Source: Tsuneonella rigui (GTDB taxonomy: Bacteria > Pseudomonadota > Alphaproteobacteria > Sphingomonadales > Sphingomonadaceae). From it: a stretch of 64,000 bases of DNA. Under the pieces are notes generated by a model. That model did not search any database. It was not told where the DNA came from and was given only the letters and a program-made list of their open reading frames with translations. The position numbers were made by a program, and so were the translations under genes. Numbering within the stretch: the first letter of the stretch is position 1; each line of letters begins with the position of its first letter. The stretch lies in contig NZ_RSEL01000026.1 in assembly GCF_003958625.1 (NCBI RefSeq), positions 1 to 64,000 of the forward strand, in the 5' to 3' direction. This document shows positions 56,498-63,622 of this stretch, piece by piece.

Positions 56498-58087
<1,590 letters not shown>

Positions 58088-58178: not shown

Positions 58179-59417
58179 ATGCAGCAGCGCGCGGTCCTGT
58201 GGTTTCTGTTCGCGGTCGTGCTGGTCGACATGATCGGTTTCGGCATCGTCATGCCGGTGCTGCCGCAACTGATCATGCACTTGGGCGACATGCCGGTCGA
58301 CAGCGCGGCGGTGTGGGCCGGGTGGCTGGCGGCGGGCTATGCCGCGATGCAATTCGTGTTCGCGCCGATCATCGGCAGCCTGTCGGACCGCTTCGGGCGG
58401 CGGCCGGTGCTGCTGGCGTGCCTCGCCGGTTTCGGAATCGACTATCTGGTGCAGGGCCTCGCGCCCAGCCTCGGCTGGCTGGTCGCCGGGCGGGTCGTCG
58501 CGGGATTGACGGGCGCAAGCTACTCGGCCGCCTACGCCTACATCGCCGATGTCACCCCGCCCGAGAAGCGCGCCGCCAGCTTCGGGCTGATGGGCATGGC
58601 GTTCGGGTTCGGCTTCATCATCGGTCCCGCGCTCGGCGGCCTGCTCGGCGAGATCGGTCCGCGGGTGCCGTTCCTCGCCGCGGCCGGTCTGGCGCTGGTC
58701 AACGTCCTGTTCGGGTTCTTCGTGCTCAAGGAGAGCCTCCCGCCGGAGAAGCGCCGGCCGTTCAGCCTCGCGCGCGCCAACGCCTTTTCGGCCTTGCGCG
58801 CGCTCGGCAATCAGAGCCGTGCGGTCATCTGGACCATCGGCGCGATCGGCGTGTGGCAGCTCGCGCACATCGTCTATCCCTCGATCTGGTCATACTTCGC
58901 GATCGAGGCCTATGGCTGGAGCGCGTGGCAGATCGGGCTATCGCTGGCGGCGGTCGGCGTCGGGAGCGCGCTGGTGCAGGGGGTGCTGCTCGGCCGCGTG
59001 GTGGCGCGGATCGGCGAGGTCGGCGCGGTGCTGGTCGGGCTGACAGCGGTGGTACTGGCGACGGCGGCGTTCGCCTTCGCCCGGTCCGACGTCGTGGTTT
59101 ACGCAGCGATCCTGTTCAATGGGTTGCAAGGGCTGATCTACCCGTCGCTCAATGCGCTCAACAGCCGGGCGGTCGACAAGCCCGCCGCCGACGCAGGCGG
59201 AACGGAATCGAGCCAAGGCGAGCTACAGGGCGCGACGCAGGCGGTCGGCTCGGTCGCCCAGATCGTCGGCCCGCCGCTGTACGCCTTTGTCTTCGCCAAG
59301 TTTTCCGGACCAAACGCGATCGCGCATTTTCCGGCCATGCCGCTGGTGCTGTCCGCGACGATCGCGGTCCTCGCGGTGTCGCTGTTCCTGGCCGGCATCA
59401 GACGGGTGCATCGCTAG
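58179..59417 (+). CDS. TetA-like MFS transporter
   Basis: A 412-residue protein with 12 transmembrane segments. The MFS signature between helices 2 and 3 is GSLSDRFGRRPVLL. The motif ADVTPPEKRAASFGLMGMAFGFGFIIGPALGG (motif C/antiporter region) is like TetA/drug antiporters. Real tetracycline specificity is not provable from sequence. GGGGAGGGG lies before the ATG. Confidence 0.88.
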   Translation: MQQRAVLWFLFAVVLVDMIGFGIVMPVLPQLIMHLGDMPVDSAAVWAGWLAAGYAAMQFVFAPIIGSLSDRFGRRPVLLACLAGFGIDYLVQGLAPSLGWLVAGRVVAGLTGASYSAAYAYIADVTPPEKRAASFGLMGMAFGFGFIIGPALGGLLGEIGPRVPFLAAAGLALVNVLFGFFVLKESLPPEKRRPFSLARANAFSALRALGNQSRAVIWTIGAIGVWQLAHIVYPSIWSYFAIEAYGWSAWQIGLSLAAVGVGSALVQGVLLGRVVARIGEVGAVLVGLTAVVLATAAFAFARSDVVVYAAILFNGLQGLIYPSLNALNSRAVDKPAADAGGTESSQGELQGATQAVGSVAQIVGPPLYAFVFAKFSGPNAIAHFPAMPLVLSATIAVLAVSLFLAGIRRVHR

Positions 59418-59433
59418 TTGCGCCAAACGCAAC
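59417..59433. promoter_or_regulatory. Operator-like dyad, copy 1
   Basis: GTTGCG-CCAAA-CGCAAC, a perfect dyad with a five-base spacer. It begins at the last base of the MFS stop codon and is repeated exactly at 60360-60376. It sits 20 bases upstream of a -35 element. Confidence 0.55.
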
Positions 59434-59453
59434 ACGTCGCGCGCTTATCTCAT

Positions 59454-59482
59454 TTGTGCAAAGCTTGGCGAAAGATTATTTC
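59454..59482 (+). promoter_or_regulatory. Promoter of the small RNA (copy 1)
   Basis: TTGTGC (59454-59459), 17-base spacer, TATTTC (59477-59482). It belongs to a 67-base cassette (59417-59483) repeated with the same spacing at 60360-60426. Confidence 0.55.
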
Positions 59483-59488
59483 CACCGC

Positions 59489-59652
59489 TGAAGCCGGACG
59501 ACGCCAGTCCTCTCCCCCCGAAGCGGCGGGTCCGGCCAGCGCCCGCGATCCCCTCCCGGATCCCGGAAGCGCGCTTCGCCCCCGCTGCAAGGCGGCCCGC
59601 GAATAGATACGGAGCGGCGGCTCTCTCTCCCCCTCGGCCGCCGCTCCGTTTT
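59489..59652 (+). ncRNA. Probable small RNA with CU-rich hairpin loops
   Basis: A transcript of about 160 bases is predicted from promoter to terminator. There is no ATG, GTG or TTG with a ribosome site inside. Hairpin 1 is GCCGGAC/GTCCGGC (59493-59499 with 59530-59536), enclosing CGCC/GGCG and loop TCCTCTCCCCCC. Hairpin 2 is GATCC/GGATC (59547-59551 with 59558-59562) with loop CCTCCC. Hairpin 3 is the terminator, with loop TCTCTCTCCCCCTC. These loops are anti-Shine-Dalgarno-like, as in some alphaproteobacterial sRNA families. Not experimentally known to me. Confidence 0.55.
59609..59652 (+). terminator. Strong intrinsic terminator
   Basis: A perfect 13-bp stem (59609-59621 with 59637-59649) is followed by TTTT. 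It ends the predicted small RNA. Confidence 0.85.
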
Positions 59653-59727
59653 CATTCTCCCTGACGGATTTTTCCATCTTTTCCGCGCGTTCGGCGGCTA
59701 GGCGCCTCTGCGAGGGGAGCACGGTCA

Positions 59728-60357
59728 ATGGATACGAATGACGCCGCCGAGCTGATCGCCGAGCTGTGCGAGGACCGCGCGGAGAAAGCTGACGAGGCGC
59801 ACTTCGCCAATCGCGCCGCGCTGCTGATCGCGGCGATGGCGGCGGTGTTGGCGATCGGTGGTCTCGGCGGCGGCAACGCCACCGACGACATGATGATCGG
59901 CAACATCCGCGCGAGCGACACCTGGGCGTTCTACCAGGCCAAGAACATTCGCCAGACCGCTTACGAGATCGAGGCGGCCGAGCTGGAATCGCGGTTAGTC
60001 GGCGCCAGCGGTGCGCAGGCCCACGACCTCAACGGCCGGATCGCGAAGTACCGCGCCAAGGTGGCCCGCTACGATGACGAGCCCGATCCGGCGGCGCCTG
60101 ATGATCCGCTCAAGGGCGAAGGCAAGAAGCAGCTGATGGCGCAAGCCAAGGTGTTCGAGGCCATGCGCGACCGCGCGTCCGAGCAGGACAACAACTTCGA
60201 TTACGCCGAGGTCGTGTTGCAACTTGCACTGGTGTTAGGGTCGGTCGCGATCCTTGCCGGCAACCGCACCGTGCTGACTGTATCGGCTTTGCTCGGCGCG
60301 ATCGGCACCGTGCTGACACTCAACGGCTTCTTCCTGCTGTTTCCAATACCGTTTTGA
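59728..60357 (+). CDS. DUF4337 membrane protein
   Basis: A 209-residue protein with a helical cytoplasmic start, one N-terminal membrane helix (about 31-47), the family segment DTWAFYQAKNIRQTAYEIEAAEL, and two C-terminal helices (about 160-176 and 184-205). DUF4337 has no assigned role. GAGGGGAG lies before the ATG. It lies between the two promoter cassettes. Confidence 0.85.
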   Translation: MDTNDAAELIAELCEDRAEKADEAHFANRAALLIAAMAAVLAIGGLGGGNATDDMMIGNIRASDTWAFYQAKNIRQTAYEIEAAELESRLVGASGAQAHDLNGRIAKYRAKVARYDDEPDPAAPDDPLKGEGKKQLMAQAKVFEAMRDRASEQDNNFDYAEVVLQLALVLGSVAILAGNRTVLTVSALLGAIGTVLTLNGFFLLFPIPF

Positions 60358-60359
60358 CC

Positions 60360-60376
60360 GTTGCGCCAAACGCAAC
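60360..60376. promoter_or_regulatory. Operator-like dyad, copy 2
   Basis: Identical GTTGCG-CCAAA-CGCAAC dyad; the first 20 bases of the cassette are the same in both copies. It lies three bases after the DUF4337 stop. Confidence 0.55.
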
Positions 60377-60396
60377 ACGGGTGCGCGTCTTCTCAT

Positions 60397-60425
60397 TTGT
60401 GAAAAGCCGCGCGTAATATTATTTC
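60397..60425 (+). promoter_or_regulatory. Promoter of the micropeptide transcript (copy 2)
   Basis: TTGTGA (60397-60402), 17-base spacer, TATTTC (60420-60425), with the same spacing to the dyad as copy 1. Confidence 0.55.
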
Positions 60426-60499: not shown

Positions 60500-60580
60500 A
60501 TGCGTCTCGCATCGCACATCCTGGCGTTCTTCGCTGCGGCGGCCATCAGCGGCCTCACGCTCGCGACGACCATCGCCTGA
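60500..60580 (+). CDS. 26-residue hydrophobic peptide
   Basis: Encodes MRLASHILAFFAAAAISGLT and six more residues. It is a basic start followed by a single hydrophobic helix, like a membrane peptide or bare signal sequence. It has its own ribosome site AGGGGAAAG, its own promoter 75 bases upstream and a terminator 6 bases after the stop. Too short for automatic calls. Function unknown. Confidence 0.6.
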   Translation: MRLASHILAFFAAAAISGLTLATTIA

Positions 60581-60638: not shown

Positions 60639-62201
60639 TCAGTCGATCGTCAGCTCGGCCGCGGCGCGTTCGCGCAAGTCGGTCTTGAGCAGCTTGCCGA
60701 TGTGGCTGCGCGGCATCTCGTCAATCGTCAGCAGCGCCGCCAGTCGCTGGGTCTTGCCCAGCTTGCCGTTGGTCTCGGTCAGGATCGACTGCACCGCGGC
60801 CTCGGGCGTTCCCGGGATCAGCCGCACGAAGCCGACCGGGGTTTCACCCCACTTGCGGCTGTCCATCCCGACCACAGCGGCCTCCGCCACGCGCGGATCG
60901 GTTTCCAACACTGCTTCGAGATCGCTCGGGTAGATGTTGAACCCGCCCGAGATGATCATGTCCTTGGCGCGGCCGACCAGCTCGACGAACCCGTCCTCGT
61001 CGATGCGGCCGATGTCGCCCATGCGCTGCCAGGTTTCGCCGCTCTCGGGATCGGTCCAGTAGCCCTCGCGGGTCTTGCCCGGCTGGTTCTTGTAGCCCGA
61101 CATCATCGTGCCCGAACGGCCGATGAGGTTGCCGGGCGTGCCGGGCGGAACCGGTCGATCCTCGTCGTCGAGGACCTTCAATTCGCTGCCCGGCGCGGGT
61201 CGGCCGACGGTGTGCAGCTTGTCGGGGAATTCGTGTGCCTGCAGCAGGCACACCACGCCGCCCTCGGTCATCGAGTAAATCTCGACCAGGCTGCCGGGCA
61301 TCCGCCGCAACACCTCGCGCTTGAGCTCGGCGGAGAATGGAGCGGAGGTGCAGTATTTTGCAACCAGGCCTGAAAGGTCGAAGTCGTCGAACGACGGCTC
61401 GTCCATCAGGCGCTGGTACTGCACCGGCACCAGCATCGTCACGTTGGTCCTGTCAGCCTGCGCGTGCGCGAGCCAGCGCTTGGTGTCGAACTTGCCCATG
61501 ATCCGCACCGTGCCCCCGGCCAGCAGCGGGGGCAGGAACGCGATCATGGTGGTGTTCGAATAGAGCGGCGTGGAGGCGAGGCTGATCACGTCCTGCCCGG
61601 TCGAGCGGAACGCCTGCGCGGTGCCGGTGAACTGGCGCCAGCGCATGAGGTGCGAATGAACGATGCCCTTGGGGATGCCGGTGGTGCCGCTCGAATAGAT
61701 GATGTTGAACGGGTCGCTCTCGGCCGGATCGAACGGCGCGGCTCGCGTGCCGGCGGGCGCCATCCACCCGTCGAGGTCTTCGTCGAGCACGATCCGCTCG
61801 AGATCGGGCATGAACCCGTCGCCGAGCTCGGTCAGCTTAGCGCGGTCGATGAACAGGTGCCGCGCGCCGCTGTCGGCCGCCATGCCGGCAAGCTGCTCGG
61901 CGCTGGCGCTGGTAGTGAGCGGCGCCGCGACCCCGCCCGCACGCACCGCCGCCAGGAACACCAGCGCGTAGGGGATGGTCGAAGTGCCGAGGATCGCCAC
62001 CGACTGCCCGCGTTCGAGCCCGGTTTCGAGCATGCGCGCGGCGATCCGTTCGATGCGGTCGTCGAGCTCGCCCCAGGTGACTTCGCCCTGCTCGTCGCGC
62101 AGGGCGACCTTGCCGGGCTGGACCGCCGCCCAATCGGCGAGGACTTGCGGGAACGAACCGAACGGCTCGCCGAGACGGGCGGCAATATCCTCAGGCGTCA
62201 C
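60639..62201 (-). CDS. Acyl-CoA synthetase/AMP-dependent ligase
   Basis: A 520-residue class I adenylate-forming enzyme: the ATP loop [38 protein letters not shown] and [20 protein letters not shown]. The catalytic Lys lies in [10 protein letters not shown] near the end. It probably activates a fatty or carboxylic acid as CoA thioester. GTG at 62201 overlaps the stop of the M20 peptidase by four bases (GTGA), so the two are coupled. Confidence 0.9.
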
Positions 62202-63622
62202 TTGCTCGACAGCTCCTTGACCAGGTCGAACAAATAGTCGCGTGCGGTGTAGACCGCCTTGACCTCGACCCGCTCGTTGAGGCCGTGGGTGCCGTTGCCG
62301 TCGGGGTCGCCCCAAACGCTCGGCACGCCGTAGGTCGGGATGCCCGCGCCGCCGGTGTAGACGCCGTCGGTCGCGCCGGTGGACATCGACGGGACCACCG
62401 GCACGCCCGGATAGTACTTGGCGGCCAGTTTTTCCATCGGCCCGATCAGCGCCGGATCGAGCGGCGGGCTCTTGGCAACCGGCTTGTCGGCCCGGCGATA
62501 CTCGATGGTGATCTTGGGATCGCCGATCACCTGGGCAAGCTGGTCCCTGATCTCCTCGCGGGTGTGGCCCGGGAACATGCGGCAGTTGACGTTCGCCTCC
62601 ACCCGCTGCGGCAGCGCATTCAGCGCATGCCCGCCGTCGATCATTGTCGCGACGCAGGTCGTGCGCAGCATCGAGTGGAGCGACTTGTCCTTGTTCACCA
62701 CAGCCATCGCGGCGCTGTCATTGAGGTCCTTGGTAAGCGCGACCATCGCCTTGCCGGTCTCGTCGAGCCGCAGCGCGCCGGCCTTGGCGAAGAACACCCG
62801 GGTGGTGTCGTTGAACTCCGCCGGAAATTCGTGCGCGGAGATTTTGTCGAGCGCGCGGCTCATGTCGTAGATCGCGTTCTCGGGCACCGGCGCGGAACTG
62901 TGGCCGCCCGGGTTGGTCGCGGTCAGCTTGAAGTCCTGGTAGACCTTCTCGCCGACCTGGATGGTCTGGACGAGCAGGTGGCCCTTGCCGTCGGTGCGCC
63001 CGCCGCCGCCTTCGTTCAGCGCGAACGCGGCGTCGATCAGGTCGCGCTTCTCGCTCGAGAGGTACTCGGCGCCGTTGAACGCGGTGTCGGTCTCCTCGCC
63101 GCAAGTGAGCGCCATCTTGATCGTGCGCTTGGGCTGGTAGCCCGCTTGCTTGAGCCGGATCAGGGTGTCGGCCCAGGTCGCGGCCTGGAACTTGTCGTCG
63201 AGAATGCCGCGGGCGTAGTAGTACCCGTTCTCCTCGACCAGCTTGAACGGATCGCGCACCCAGTCCTCGCGCTTGGCGGCGACCACGTCGATGTGCGCCA
63301 GCAGCAGCATCGGCTTGAGGGTGGTGGAGGTGCCGGGGAGGACCGCGACGAGGCCGCCATCGTCCGGATGCTCCGCGACCGAGAACGGGATAAGCTGCTC
63401 GTCAGTGAAGCCGGCCGCCTTCATCCGGGTGGCGATCTGCGCCGCGGCCTGGGTGCAACTGCCGACCCCGACCACGGTGTTGGTCTCGACCAGCTCCTTG
63501 TAGAGATCGAAGAACTTCTGCTGGTCGGGCCGCAGCGGACCCTGCGTGCCGGTGGCGACCTGCGCCAGCGCGGAAGTCGAGATCAGGGAAGCCGCGACCG
63601 CCCCCAGTACCGCCTTTTTCAT
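62198..63622 (-). CDS. M20-family peptidase, secreted
   Basis: A 474-residue exported metallopeptidase. The signal peptide [20 protein letters not shown] is followed by zinc ligands in [11 protein letters not shown] (H, D), RGILDDK (D), GEETDTAF (E-E) and the C-terminal H of GTHGLNE. The dimerisation insert lies in the middle. It is of the carboxypeptidase/dipeptidase type. It ends in the acyl-CoA synthetase start. Confidence 0.9.

Follow-up and report, generated by a model that had tools for sequence, protein, structure and literature searches.

A predicted CU-rich small RNA of Tsuneonella rigui with a promoter module in common with SuhB/MmgR and a micro-protein gene that relatives carry inside the homologous RNA

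Introduction

Two components of the system described here are already known, namely small RNAs (sRNAs) of the CU-rich, anti-Shine-Dalgarno (anti-SD) type and the combination of a small protein and an sRNA in one transcript, as in CcaF1-CcsR. The SuhB/MmgR/alpha-r8 family (RF00519; SisA-D in Caulobacter) resembles our RNA in its operator and in the register of its promoter. SisA-D are described as acting through a 10-mer with an anti-SD signature on ribosome-binding regions, and SisA as base-pairing with a target (PMC12559287); the likeness to our RNA is one of description and not of letters. SuhB of Sphingopyxis is reported to bind thnR mRNA, to lower its translation together with Hfq, and to follow growth rate (PMC6563040). 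The new RNA differs from SuhB/MmgR in its scaffold, which is about 170 nt long and comprises four hairpins with three CU loops, and in that its homologues encode a micro-protein.

Transcripts that unite a gene for a small protein with CcsR-type RNAs are, according to their published description, frequent in Alphaproteobacteria (PMC10253847). In the CIN1 locus, a 71-aa DUF1127 protein (CcaF1) is encoded by the same transcript from which four RNAs (CcsR1-4, cuckoo RNAs) are processed. The new family also combines a small protein with an RNA, but this protein is hydrophobic, has 26-27 aa and no Pfam match, and is encoded behind one CU hairpin and usually before another. Moreover, the gene linked to the RNA in the window encodes a DUF4337 and not a DUF1127 protein. 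The nearest precedent for a regulon of sRNAs plus a small protein is probably that of VtlR, a LysR-type regulator of Agrobacterium, described as directly driving the sRNAs AbcR1 and VrsA and the annotated small protein atu1667 from very few genomic sites (PMC7486931). In our case the genes with a T-N11-A dyad upstream are two for sRNAs and one for a micro-protein, a likeness drawn from descriptions and not from site sequences.

We consider it likely that the RNA described below is a trans-acting anti-SD riboregulator belonging to a new family of dual-function RNAs, which in the genus of T. rigui is divided between a non-coding sRNA and a separate micro-protein gene, each with its own copy of the promoter. 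Within the libraries and literature searched, the new features are the split, the RNA family and its micro-protein, and the promoter code that connects them with SuhB; no description of this RNA or of the micro-protein was found in that literature.

Layout and Fold of the RNA

The window, i.e., the whole stretch of 64,000 nucleotides that was analysed, contains on its plus strand a predicted CU-rich sRNA at 59484-59655, supported by a covariance model (R1) and by the genomes of the genus. It would be transcribed from its own promoter, with a start at about 59488. Hairpin 1 (59493-59536; in the predicted fold its stem extends to 59486-59541) carries the loop TCCTCTCCCCCC at 59508-59519, and hairpin 2 (59543-59566) carries the loop CCTCCC at 59552-59557, which belongs to the middle pyrimidine run of the genus. 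Hairpin 3 (59575-59603) is without a CU loop and contains pairs with double changes, and hairpin 4, the 3' hairpin (59609-59649), has 14 bp and the loop CTCTCTCCCCCTC at 59623-59635, CU-loop 3' hairpins and covariation being found also in relatives. The predicted folding energy of the region 59484-59656 is -83.3 kcal/mol, as compared to -70.1 kcal/mol (sd 4.2) in 200 dinucleotide shuffles (z -3.2), none of which was as stable.

The first-pass annotation of this DNA had placed the three CU-loop hairpins correctly and had seen no credible start codon, in agreement with the lack of any ATG and of any ORF of at least 12 aa inside the window RNA. Its list of elements was incomplete, as it lacked the fourth hairpin (59575-59603), the second operator and promoter (60360-60424) and the micro-ORF, and the view confined to the window could not reveal that members of the RNA's family also encode a micro-protein.

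The comparison with Rfam proposed in that annotation gave no family above its cut-off anywhere in the window (Rfam 15), the best scores of alphaproteobacterial sRNAs being far under the cut-offs, and no family match in 20 loci containing homologues of the window RNA. In particular, the RF00519 covariance model (gathering score 41) matched separate suhB genes and neither the window nor the 20 homologue loci, and the models of CcsR1 (RF02791) and ar14 (RF02344) reached 14.9 bits vs. 65.3 and 15.7 bits vs. 58.8, respectively, with no match in the 20 loci.

The predicted folds expose C/U-rich loops with an SD-complementary core, a trait of the functional class of anti-SD sRNAs, and by analogy with members of this class, which base-pair with mRNAs and usually do so with Hfq, the RNA may pair with SD sequences. 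The predicted pairing of single loops with the SD consensus is weak (-7.3 to -9.0 kcal/mol), that of the SuhB core being also -8.3 kcal/mol. The 9-mer UCCUCUCCC occurs in 5/5 suhB loci read and in 10/11 new RNAs. It is this common 9-mer (10/11 genomes), together with the promoter, that would allow the function of SuhB to be transferred to the new RNA.

Conservation and Covariation

The RNA is present in all 11 genomes of the genus. A blastn search with a 261-bp stretch pointed to the right place in nine of them, comprising the own genome, seven long matches and, in G009, a short match; in G005 the match lay elsewhere, G007 gave no match, and the RNA was located in both by reading the dyad. Three pyrimidine-rich stretches follow in the same order in 11/11 genus RNAs, the middle run having at least 7 nt in ten of them and being a shorter C run in G003. 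ORFs of at least 12 aa are present inside the RNA in four genomes (G002, G005, G007, and G009), the only similar pair being that of the near relatives G005 and G009; the remaining seven, which include the window, have none.

The covariance model search suggested at the outset does find relatives. R1, built on 8 of the 11 genus sequences with hairpin 1 cut short, recovers the three genus genomes outside its build set (G005, G007, and G009, the last as L027) and has a match in another genus (G392, E 1e-4). Its 9 matching genomes among the 396 of the order are a lower bound because hairpin 1 is cut short in its eight sequences.

The stems covary while the loops remain CU-rich. In the 3' hairpin of 19 sequences, 98.1% of cells are paired, as compared to 35-51% for slid partners, and 6 of 14 pairs show double changes. 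In the outer stem of hairpin 1 (24 sequences) the corresponding values are 88% vs. 19-54% and 3 of 7 pairs; the number of double-change pairs in this stem is not above that of shuffles (370/500), while the share of paired cells and the covariation score are both higher than in any of the 500. Between genera the inner stem of this hairpin varies much and still pairs, as judged by eye and from single folds.

Hairpin 1 has a CU loop in 34/34 tabled loci, nine of which came from a pattern already requiring CCTCTCCC; under a strict one-hairpin rule none is found in four of the 34 (G003, G006, G004, and G253). Among 15 loci found by micro-ORF or promoter searches, which did not use the CU criterion, 14 have the CU loop (13 tabled ones and G356), and G146 is without it by eye; G356 and G146 are outside the 34 loci and were inspected separately. 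A CU-loop 3' hairpin, for which the search asked for a CU loop, is present in 31/34 loci. The hairpins, whose conservation among related genomes had been named beforehand as the point on which the prediction would stand or fall, are conserved.

Operator and Promoter

Operator 1 (GTTGCGCCAAACGCAAC, 59417-59433) is a 17-bp dyad, GTTGCG-N5-CGCAAC, of the general form GTTGC-N7-GCAAC with T-N11-A. Predicted promoter 1 follows it on the plus strand with TTGTGC (59454-59459), 16 nt, and TTATTT (59476-59481), at a rigid spacing from the operator. Both elements had been noticed in the first reading of this DNA and are confirmed here, the promoter as a pattern at which a strict sigma-70 scan made no call (59454-59481). 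The same dyad recurs exactly as operator 2 (60360-60376), and a promoter pattern search places predicted promoter 2 (TTGTGA-16-TTATTT) at 60397-60424 of the plus strand.

Without mismatches, GTTGCG-N5-CGCAAC occurs at three places of the own genome: upstream of the sRNA, upstream of the 60500 ORF of 26 aa, and at C29:21923, where it precedes a gene matching RF00519 suhB (52 bits vs. a cut-off of 41). Over its full 17 bp, the dyad before the own SuhB/MmgR (RF00519) has one changed base. The GTTGC-N7-GCAAC dyad lies upstream of the RNA in 11/11 genus genomes. The bare dyad is neither rarer nor commoner in the genus than its control (2-8 places per genome vs. 3-7 for the reversed pattern), and the enrichment is confined to the composite of dyad and promoter. 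Among sequences with a perfect dyad, the distance from the operator end is 15 nt to a CTCATTT-like element and 41 nt to ATTAT in 20/21 new-RNA sequences, and the -35 element starts in one register in 20/21 new RNAs and 26/31 suhB genes.

The promoter pattern with up to three mismatches was found in 23/396 genomes of the order, and its reversed control in none. The dyad followed after 62-92 nt by CCTCTCCC, a pattern that mixes suhB and the new RNA, was found in 92/396 genomes, all of the own family (3 sites for the reversed control). The composite promoter of fixed spacing with up to two mismatches is present in 259/367 Sphingomonadaceae genomes and 72/96 genera (5 sites for the reversed control). 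The presence in 11/11 genomes, the covarying stems, the rigid spacing (20/21), and the operator common to SuhB/MmgR lend comparative support to the original suggestion of a regulated riboregulator with its own operator.

LysR-type activators bind T-N11-A sites around -65. The centre of operator 1 (59425) is at about -63 from the predicted start, and the site therefore looks LysR-like by its geometry only. Six LysR-type genes above the cut-off in the own genome were read, and none could be linked to the operator.

PhaR/AniA was also considered as the reader of the operator. Its appeal was that AniA represses mmgR in Sinorhizobium, where the regulator site is in the MmgR promoter, and that PHB affects suhB in Sphingopyxis; a PhaR domain is encoded in 11/11 genus genomes. 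Published PhaR boxes are of the GC-N3-GC form (CTGCN3GCAG; YGCRNYGCR) (PMC12542648), in contrast to the GC-N7-GC of the operator in the window and at the 11 genus sites, and because of this wrong spacing PhaR/AniA was rejected. PhaR may, nevertheless, act through the -35 element (GC-N4-GC). In G298 (C1:85761-85779; L059, L096), TTTTCGCA-N2-TGCGAAAA makes the -35 region palindromic, as is nearly the case in some suhB promoters; it is possible that this palindrome is a second protein site.

Micro-ORF beside or inside the RNA

An unannotated ORF of 26 aa (MRLASHILAFFAAAAISGLTLATTIA; 60500-60580, plus strand), preceded by the ribosome-binding site AGGGGA, was identified with the use of homologous ORFs, an HMM, and a coding test. 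Behind the RNA, 7/11 genus genomes have such an ORF of 26 codons (the G004 copy starts with GTG), and six of the seven have a recognisable second promoter. In G006 the dyad before the micro-ORF is imperfect, and in G001 a GTTGC-N7-GCAAC-like dyad is present without a recognisable promoter. No micro-ORF follows the RNA at the locus in G002, G005, G007, and G009, and the HMM found none elsewhere in G002, G005, and G007, the three of these four that were sampled. Four micro-ORFs searched against Pfam and NCBIfam had no match up to E=1. The micro-peptide is hydrophobic (best 19-aa mean of 2.0 on the Kyte-Doolittle scale), with R or K nearly always after its first M, and the micro-protein is probably inserted in the membrane.

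The HMM, built from 10 ORFs, matched 40/396 genomes of the order at E<=0.05, 16 of them at E <0.001. Two of the 24 weaker matches, L118 and L119, were inspected and neither has such an ORF; the L135 match runs past the end of its stretch and was left out. In 20 ORFs, mean pS was 0.53 and mean pN 0.27, with pS>pN in 190/190 pairs, and differences by codon position numbered 1655, 871, and 2358. In the G198/G268 pair pS was 0.30 and pN 0.02. In five Pelagerythrobacter-type ORFs of one common place, pS was 0.20-0.40 and pN 0.02-0.05 in 9/10 pairs, the tenth being nearly identical. By these substitution patterns the micro-ORF evolves as a protein, in ORFs gathered by a protein pattern or HMM, a selection that favours protein-like conservation.

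In ten genomes (G118, G167, G171, G198, G268, G331, G274, G303, G362, and G392) the micro-ORF is inside the homologous RNA, in the order CU-loop hairpin, ribosome-binding site, ORF, and CU-loop 3' hairpin, the last being absent in G167 and G303. These internal ORFs have 26-27 codons and belong to Erythrobacter-like Sphingomonadaceae; the named carriers of the dual form are Pelagerythrobacter marinus, P. aerophilus, P. rhizovicinus, Altererythrobacter sp. C41, and Alteripontixanthobacter muriae. Judging from the sequence, a conserved coding ORF and a regulatory structure, which define a dual-function RNA, are united in these relatives and not in the window RNA, and the dual form would be one transcript. 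No such ORF is present in G186, G298, G253, G356, G368, and the g32 genomes (G191, G261, G312, and G341). In G235 and G168, related DNA at the place of the ORF encodes other residues (an open frame of 27 codons in G168 and a 21-codon frame in G235), and these frames are read as altered relics. G146 has the operator and the ORF and, by eye, no CU hairpin.

The arrangement of the dual forms, in which the loop of the 5' CU hairpin could pair with the AGGAG-type ribosome-binding site directly behind this hairpin, raises the question whether the hairpins act only in cis, setting translation or stability of the micro-ORF mRNA, with the non-coding version of the genus as a remnant of that mRNA or a decoy for it. 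The loops of the window RNA, too, can pair with the ribosome-binding region of the own micro-ORF (-9.9 to -10.6 kcal/mol, predicted). We nevertheless regard an exclusively cis-acting role as unlikely. ORF-less forms in six other genera retain both CU hairpins, so that the RNA appears to matter apart from the protein; CU loops are kept in 11/11 genus RNAs, including the four genomes that have the RNA and no micro-ORF at the locus, and a third CU hairpin was added in the own genus.

Neighbourhood and Forms of the Locus

The RNA lies between guaA (GMP synthase; 56498-58087, minus strand) and a convergent gene of the AMP-binding, acyl-CoA ligase type (60639-62315, minus strand). The guaA motif is found upstream in 31/34 loci, and the ligase motif within 3.2 kb downstream in 29/34 loci by a strict and in 30/34 by a looser search. 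Since these two genes flank most loci, the dual, ORF-less and split forms represent the same locus in most genera.

In the window, a DUF4337 gene (59728-60357) lies between the RNA and the micro-ORF unit, on the same strand as the RNA. Its start, 78 nt past the 3' hairpin, would suit a leader or attenuator of the downstream gene, a role that we consider very improbable, as DUF4337 follows the RNA only in G000 and G003 (2/11 genus genomes, by eye), and in the others the micro-ORF unit or the convergent ligase takes its place.

The closeness of the GC-rich 3' hairpin to the convergent gene in most loci could in turn indicate a mere terminator region between genes, transcribed only as a 3' UTR. 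The first-pass annotation had called this hairpin a terminator, and the GC-rich 14-bp stem at 59609-59649 is followed directly by TTTC, or by TTTT when the final base of the stem is included, but the name is only partly apt: TTTT stands behind the 3' hairpin on the sRNA strand in just 8/31 loci. A strict terminator scan made no call at this RNA. Considering also that a terminator region does not predict a conserved promoter with rigid operator spacing, the CU-loop hairpin 1, or an internal micro-ORF, we find this explanation scarcely credible.

In a tree of the ligases (30 rows), the three forms of the locus require 9 changes, and for the dual form no fewer than 3 follow from the starred branches; the split form is found in the own genus only. 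Ten of the 27 inner branches of this tree are open, its long branch is A. muriae, and four of the 34 loci (G118, G167, G261, and G191), which have no ligase motif, are not in it. The change may have proceeded from the dual to the split form, a direction that leans on the scattered dual rows of the tree.

Proposed Mechanism

That the RNA is a sponge for Hfq or another RNA-binding protein and not a base-pairing regulator is highly unlikely, since, even though a titrating RNA would presumably show repeated pyrimidine hairpin loops as well, its loops share the letters of the UCCUCUCCC core present in the SuhB genes of the genus, and both SisA, of the same family (PMC12559287), and SuhB, with thnR (PMC6563040), are reported to bind mRNA targets.

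For the trans-acting anti-SD riboregulator that we favour, the following mode of action may be proposed. A DNA-binding protein would recognise GTTGC-N7-GCAAC, which is centred some 63 bp before the predicted start; the site and its spacing are observed, and the protein and the sign of its control are conjectural. The three CU-rich loops, exposed on stable hairpins, would pair with G-rich SD regions and lower the translation of several mRNAs, much as is thought for RNAs of the SuhB/MmgR kind, through the core that the genus's SuhB also contains. SuhB levels in Sphingopyxis are reported to be high when the cells grow at a high rate (PMC6563040), and if the common operator carries the signal, the new RNA probably reaches its highest level in fast growth. 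In Erythrobacter-like Sphingomonadaceae the RNA often appears to be a dual-function one, and in the own genus its two jobs would have been separated: the window and most of the sister species have the operator and promoter twice in tandem, the first copy before the non-coding RNA with its extra CU hairpin and the second before a micro-ORF without CU loops. This tandem picture is not uniform across the genus, as 4/11 genomes are without the micro-ORF at the locus and G001 and G006 deviate.

The locus contributes an RNA family that Rfam does not contain and a micro-protein family without an entry in Pfam or NCBIfam. For SuhB/MmgR, it provides a promoter code which can be used to find the regulator and partners of this RNA across hundreds of genomes. 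The dual, ORF-less and split versions form a natural comparative system in which the RNA and peptide roles of a dual-function RNA can be separated.

A Possible Wider Regulon

Downstream of copies of the composite promoter in 11 further stretches lie micro-ORFs of a second type, others related to the first, UrcA-like genes, and a suhB gene. The second type, e.g., MTAFAKRVVELYVRGAARYPMPFIWTL, lies behind a CU-loop hairpin in L188 and L189; the one of L188 and a like ORF in L190 had no NCBIfam match. The one UrcA-like fragment tested matched TIGR04433 (49.1 bits vs. a cut-off of 25). Since the promoter module is common to SuhB, the window RNA, and further micro-ORFs and UrcA-like genes of other genera, all of them are probably switched together.

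A broader proposal, which in our judgement could equally prove right or wrong, is that of a Sphingomonadaceae-wide regulon in which one DNA-binding protein, through a two-part promoter (GTTGC-N7-GCAAC and a TTTCGCA-N2-TG -35 element), links CU-loop anti-SD RNAs with micro-proteins that are secreted or located in the membrane, namely UrcA and two kinds of 23-29 aa. The dual-function RNA of this regulon would have lost the ORF repeatedly; in the own genus, tandem duplication would have divided it into a riboregulator without an ORF and a separate gene for the micro-protein. If true, this would be a case in which a dual-function RNA underwent subfunctionalisation in nature.

Tandem arrays of the composite promoter, with copies about 300-520 bp apart, are present in G430 (C2:286659-287853; L188), G465 (C13; L189), and G567 (C35; L194), and each copy precedes a micro-ORF or an UrcA-like gene. 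The second-type micro-ORFs at L188:1097-1327 and in L189 (minus strand, 995) encode about 27 aa ending in PMPFIWTL or similar. Two operator-bearing suhB-like genes are found about 0.2-1 kb apart in G305, G337, G231, and G385. Further dyads lie between rsh-like and cytochrome bd-type genes in L022, L026, and L030 (G004, G006, and G010, respectively) and between AMP nucleosidase-like and acetyltransferase-like genes in G005 and G009, all these genes being named by eye from their translations.
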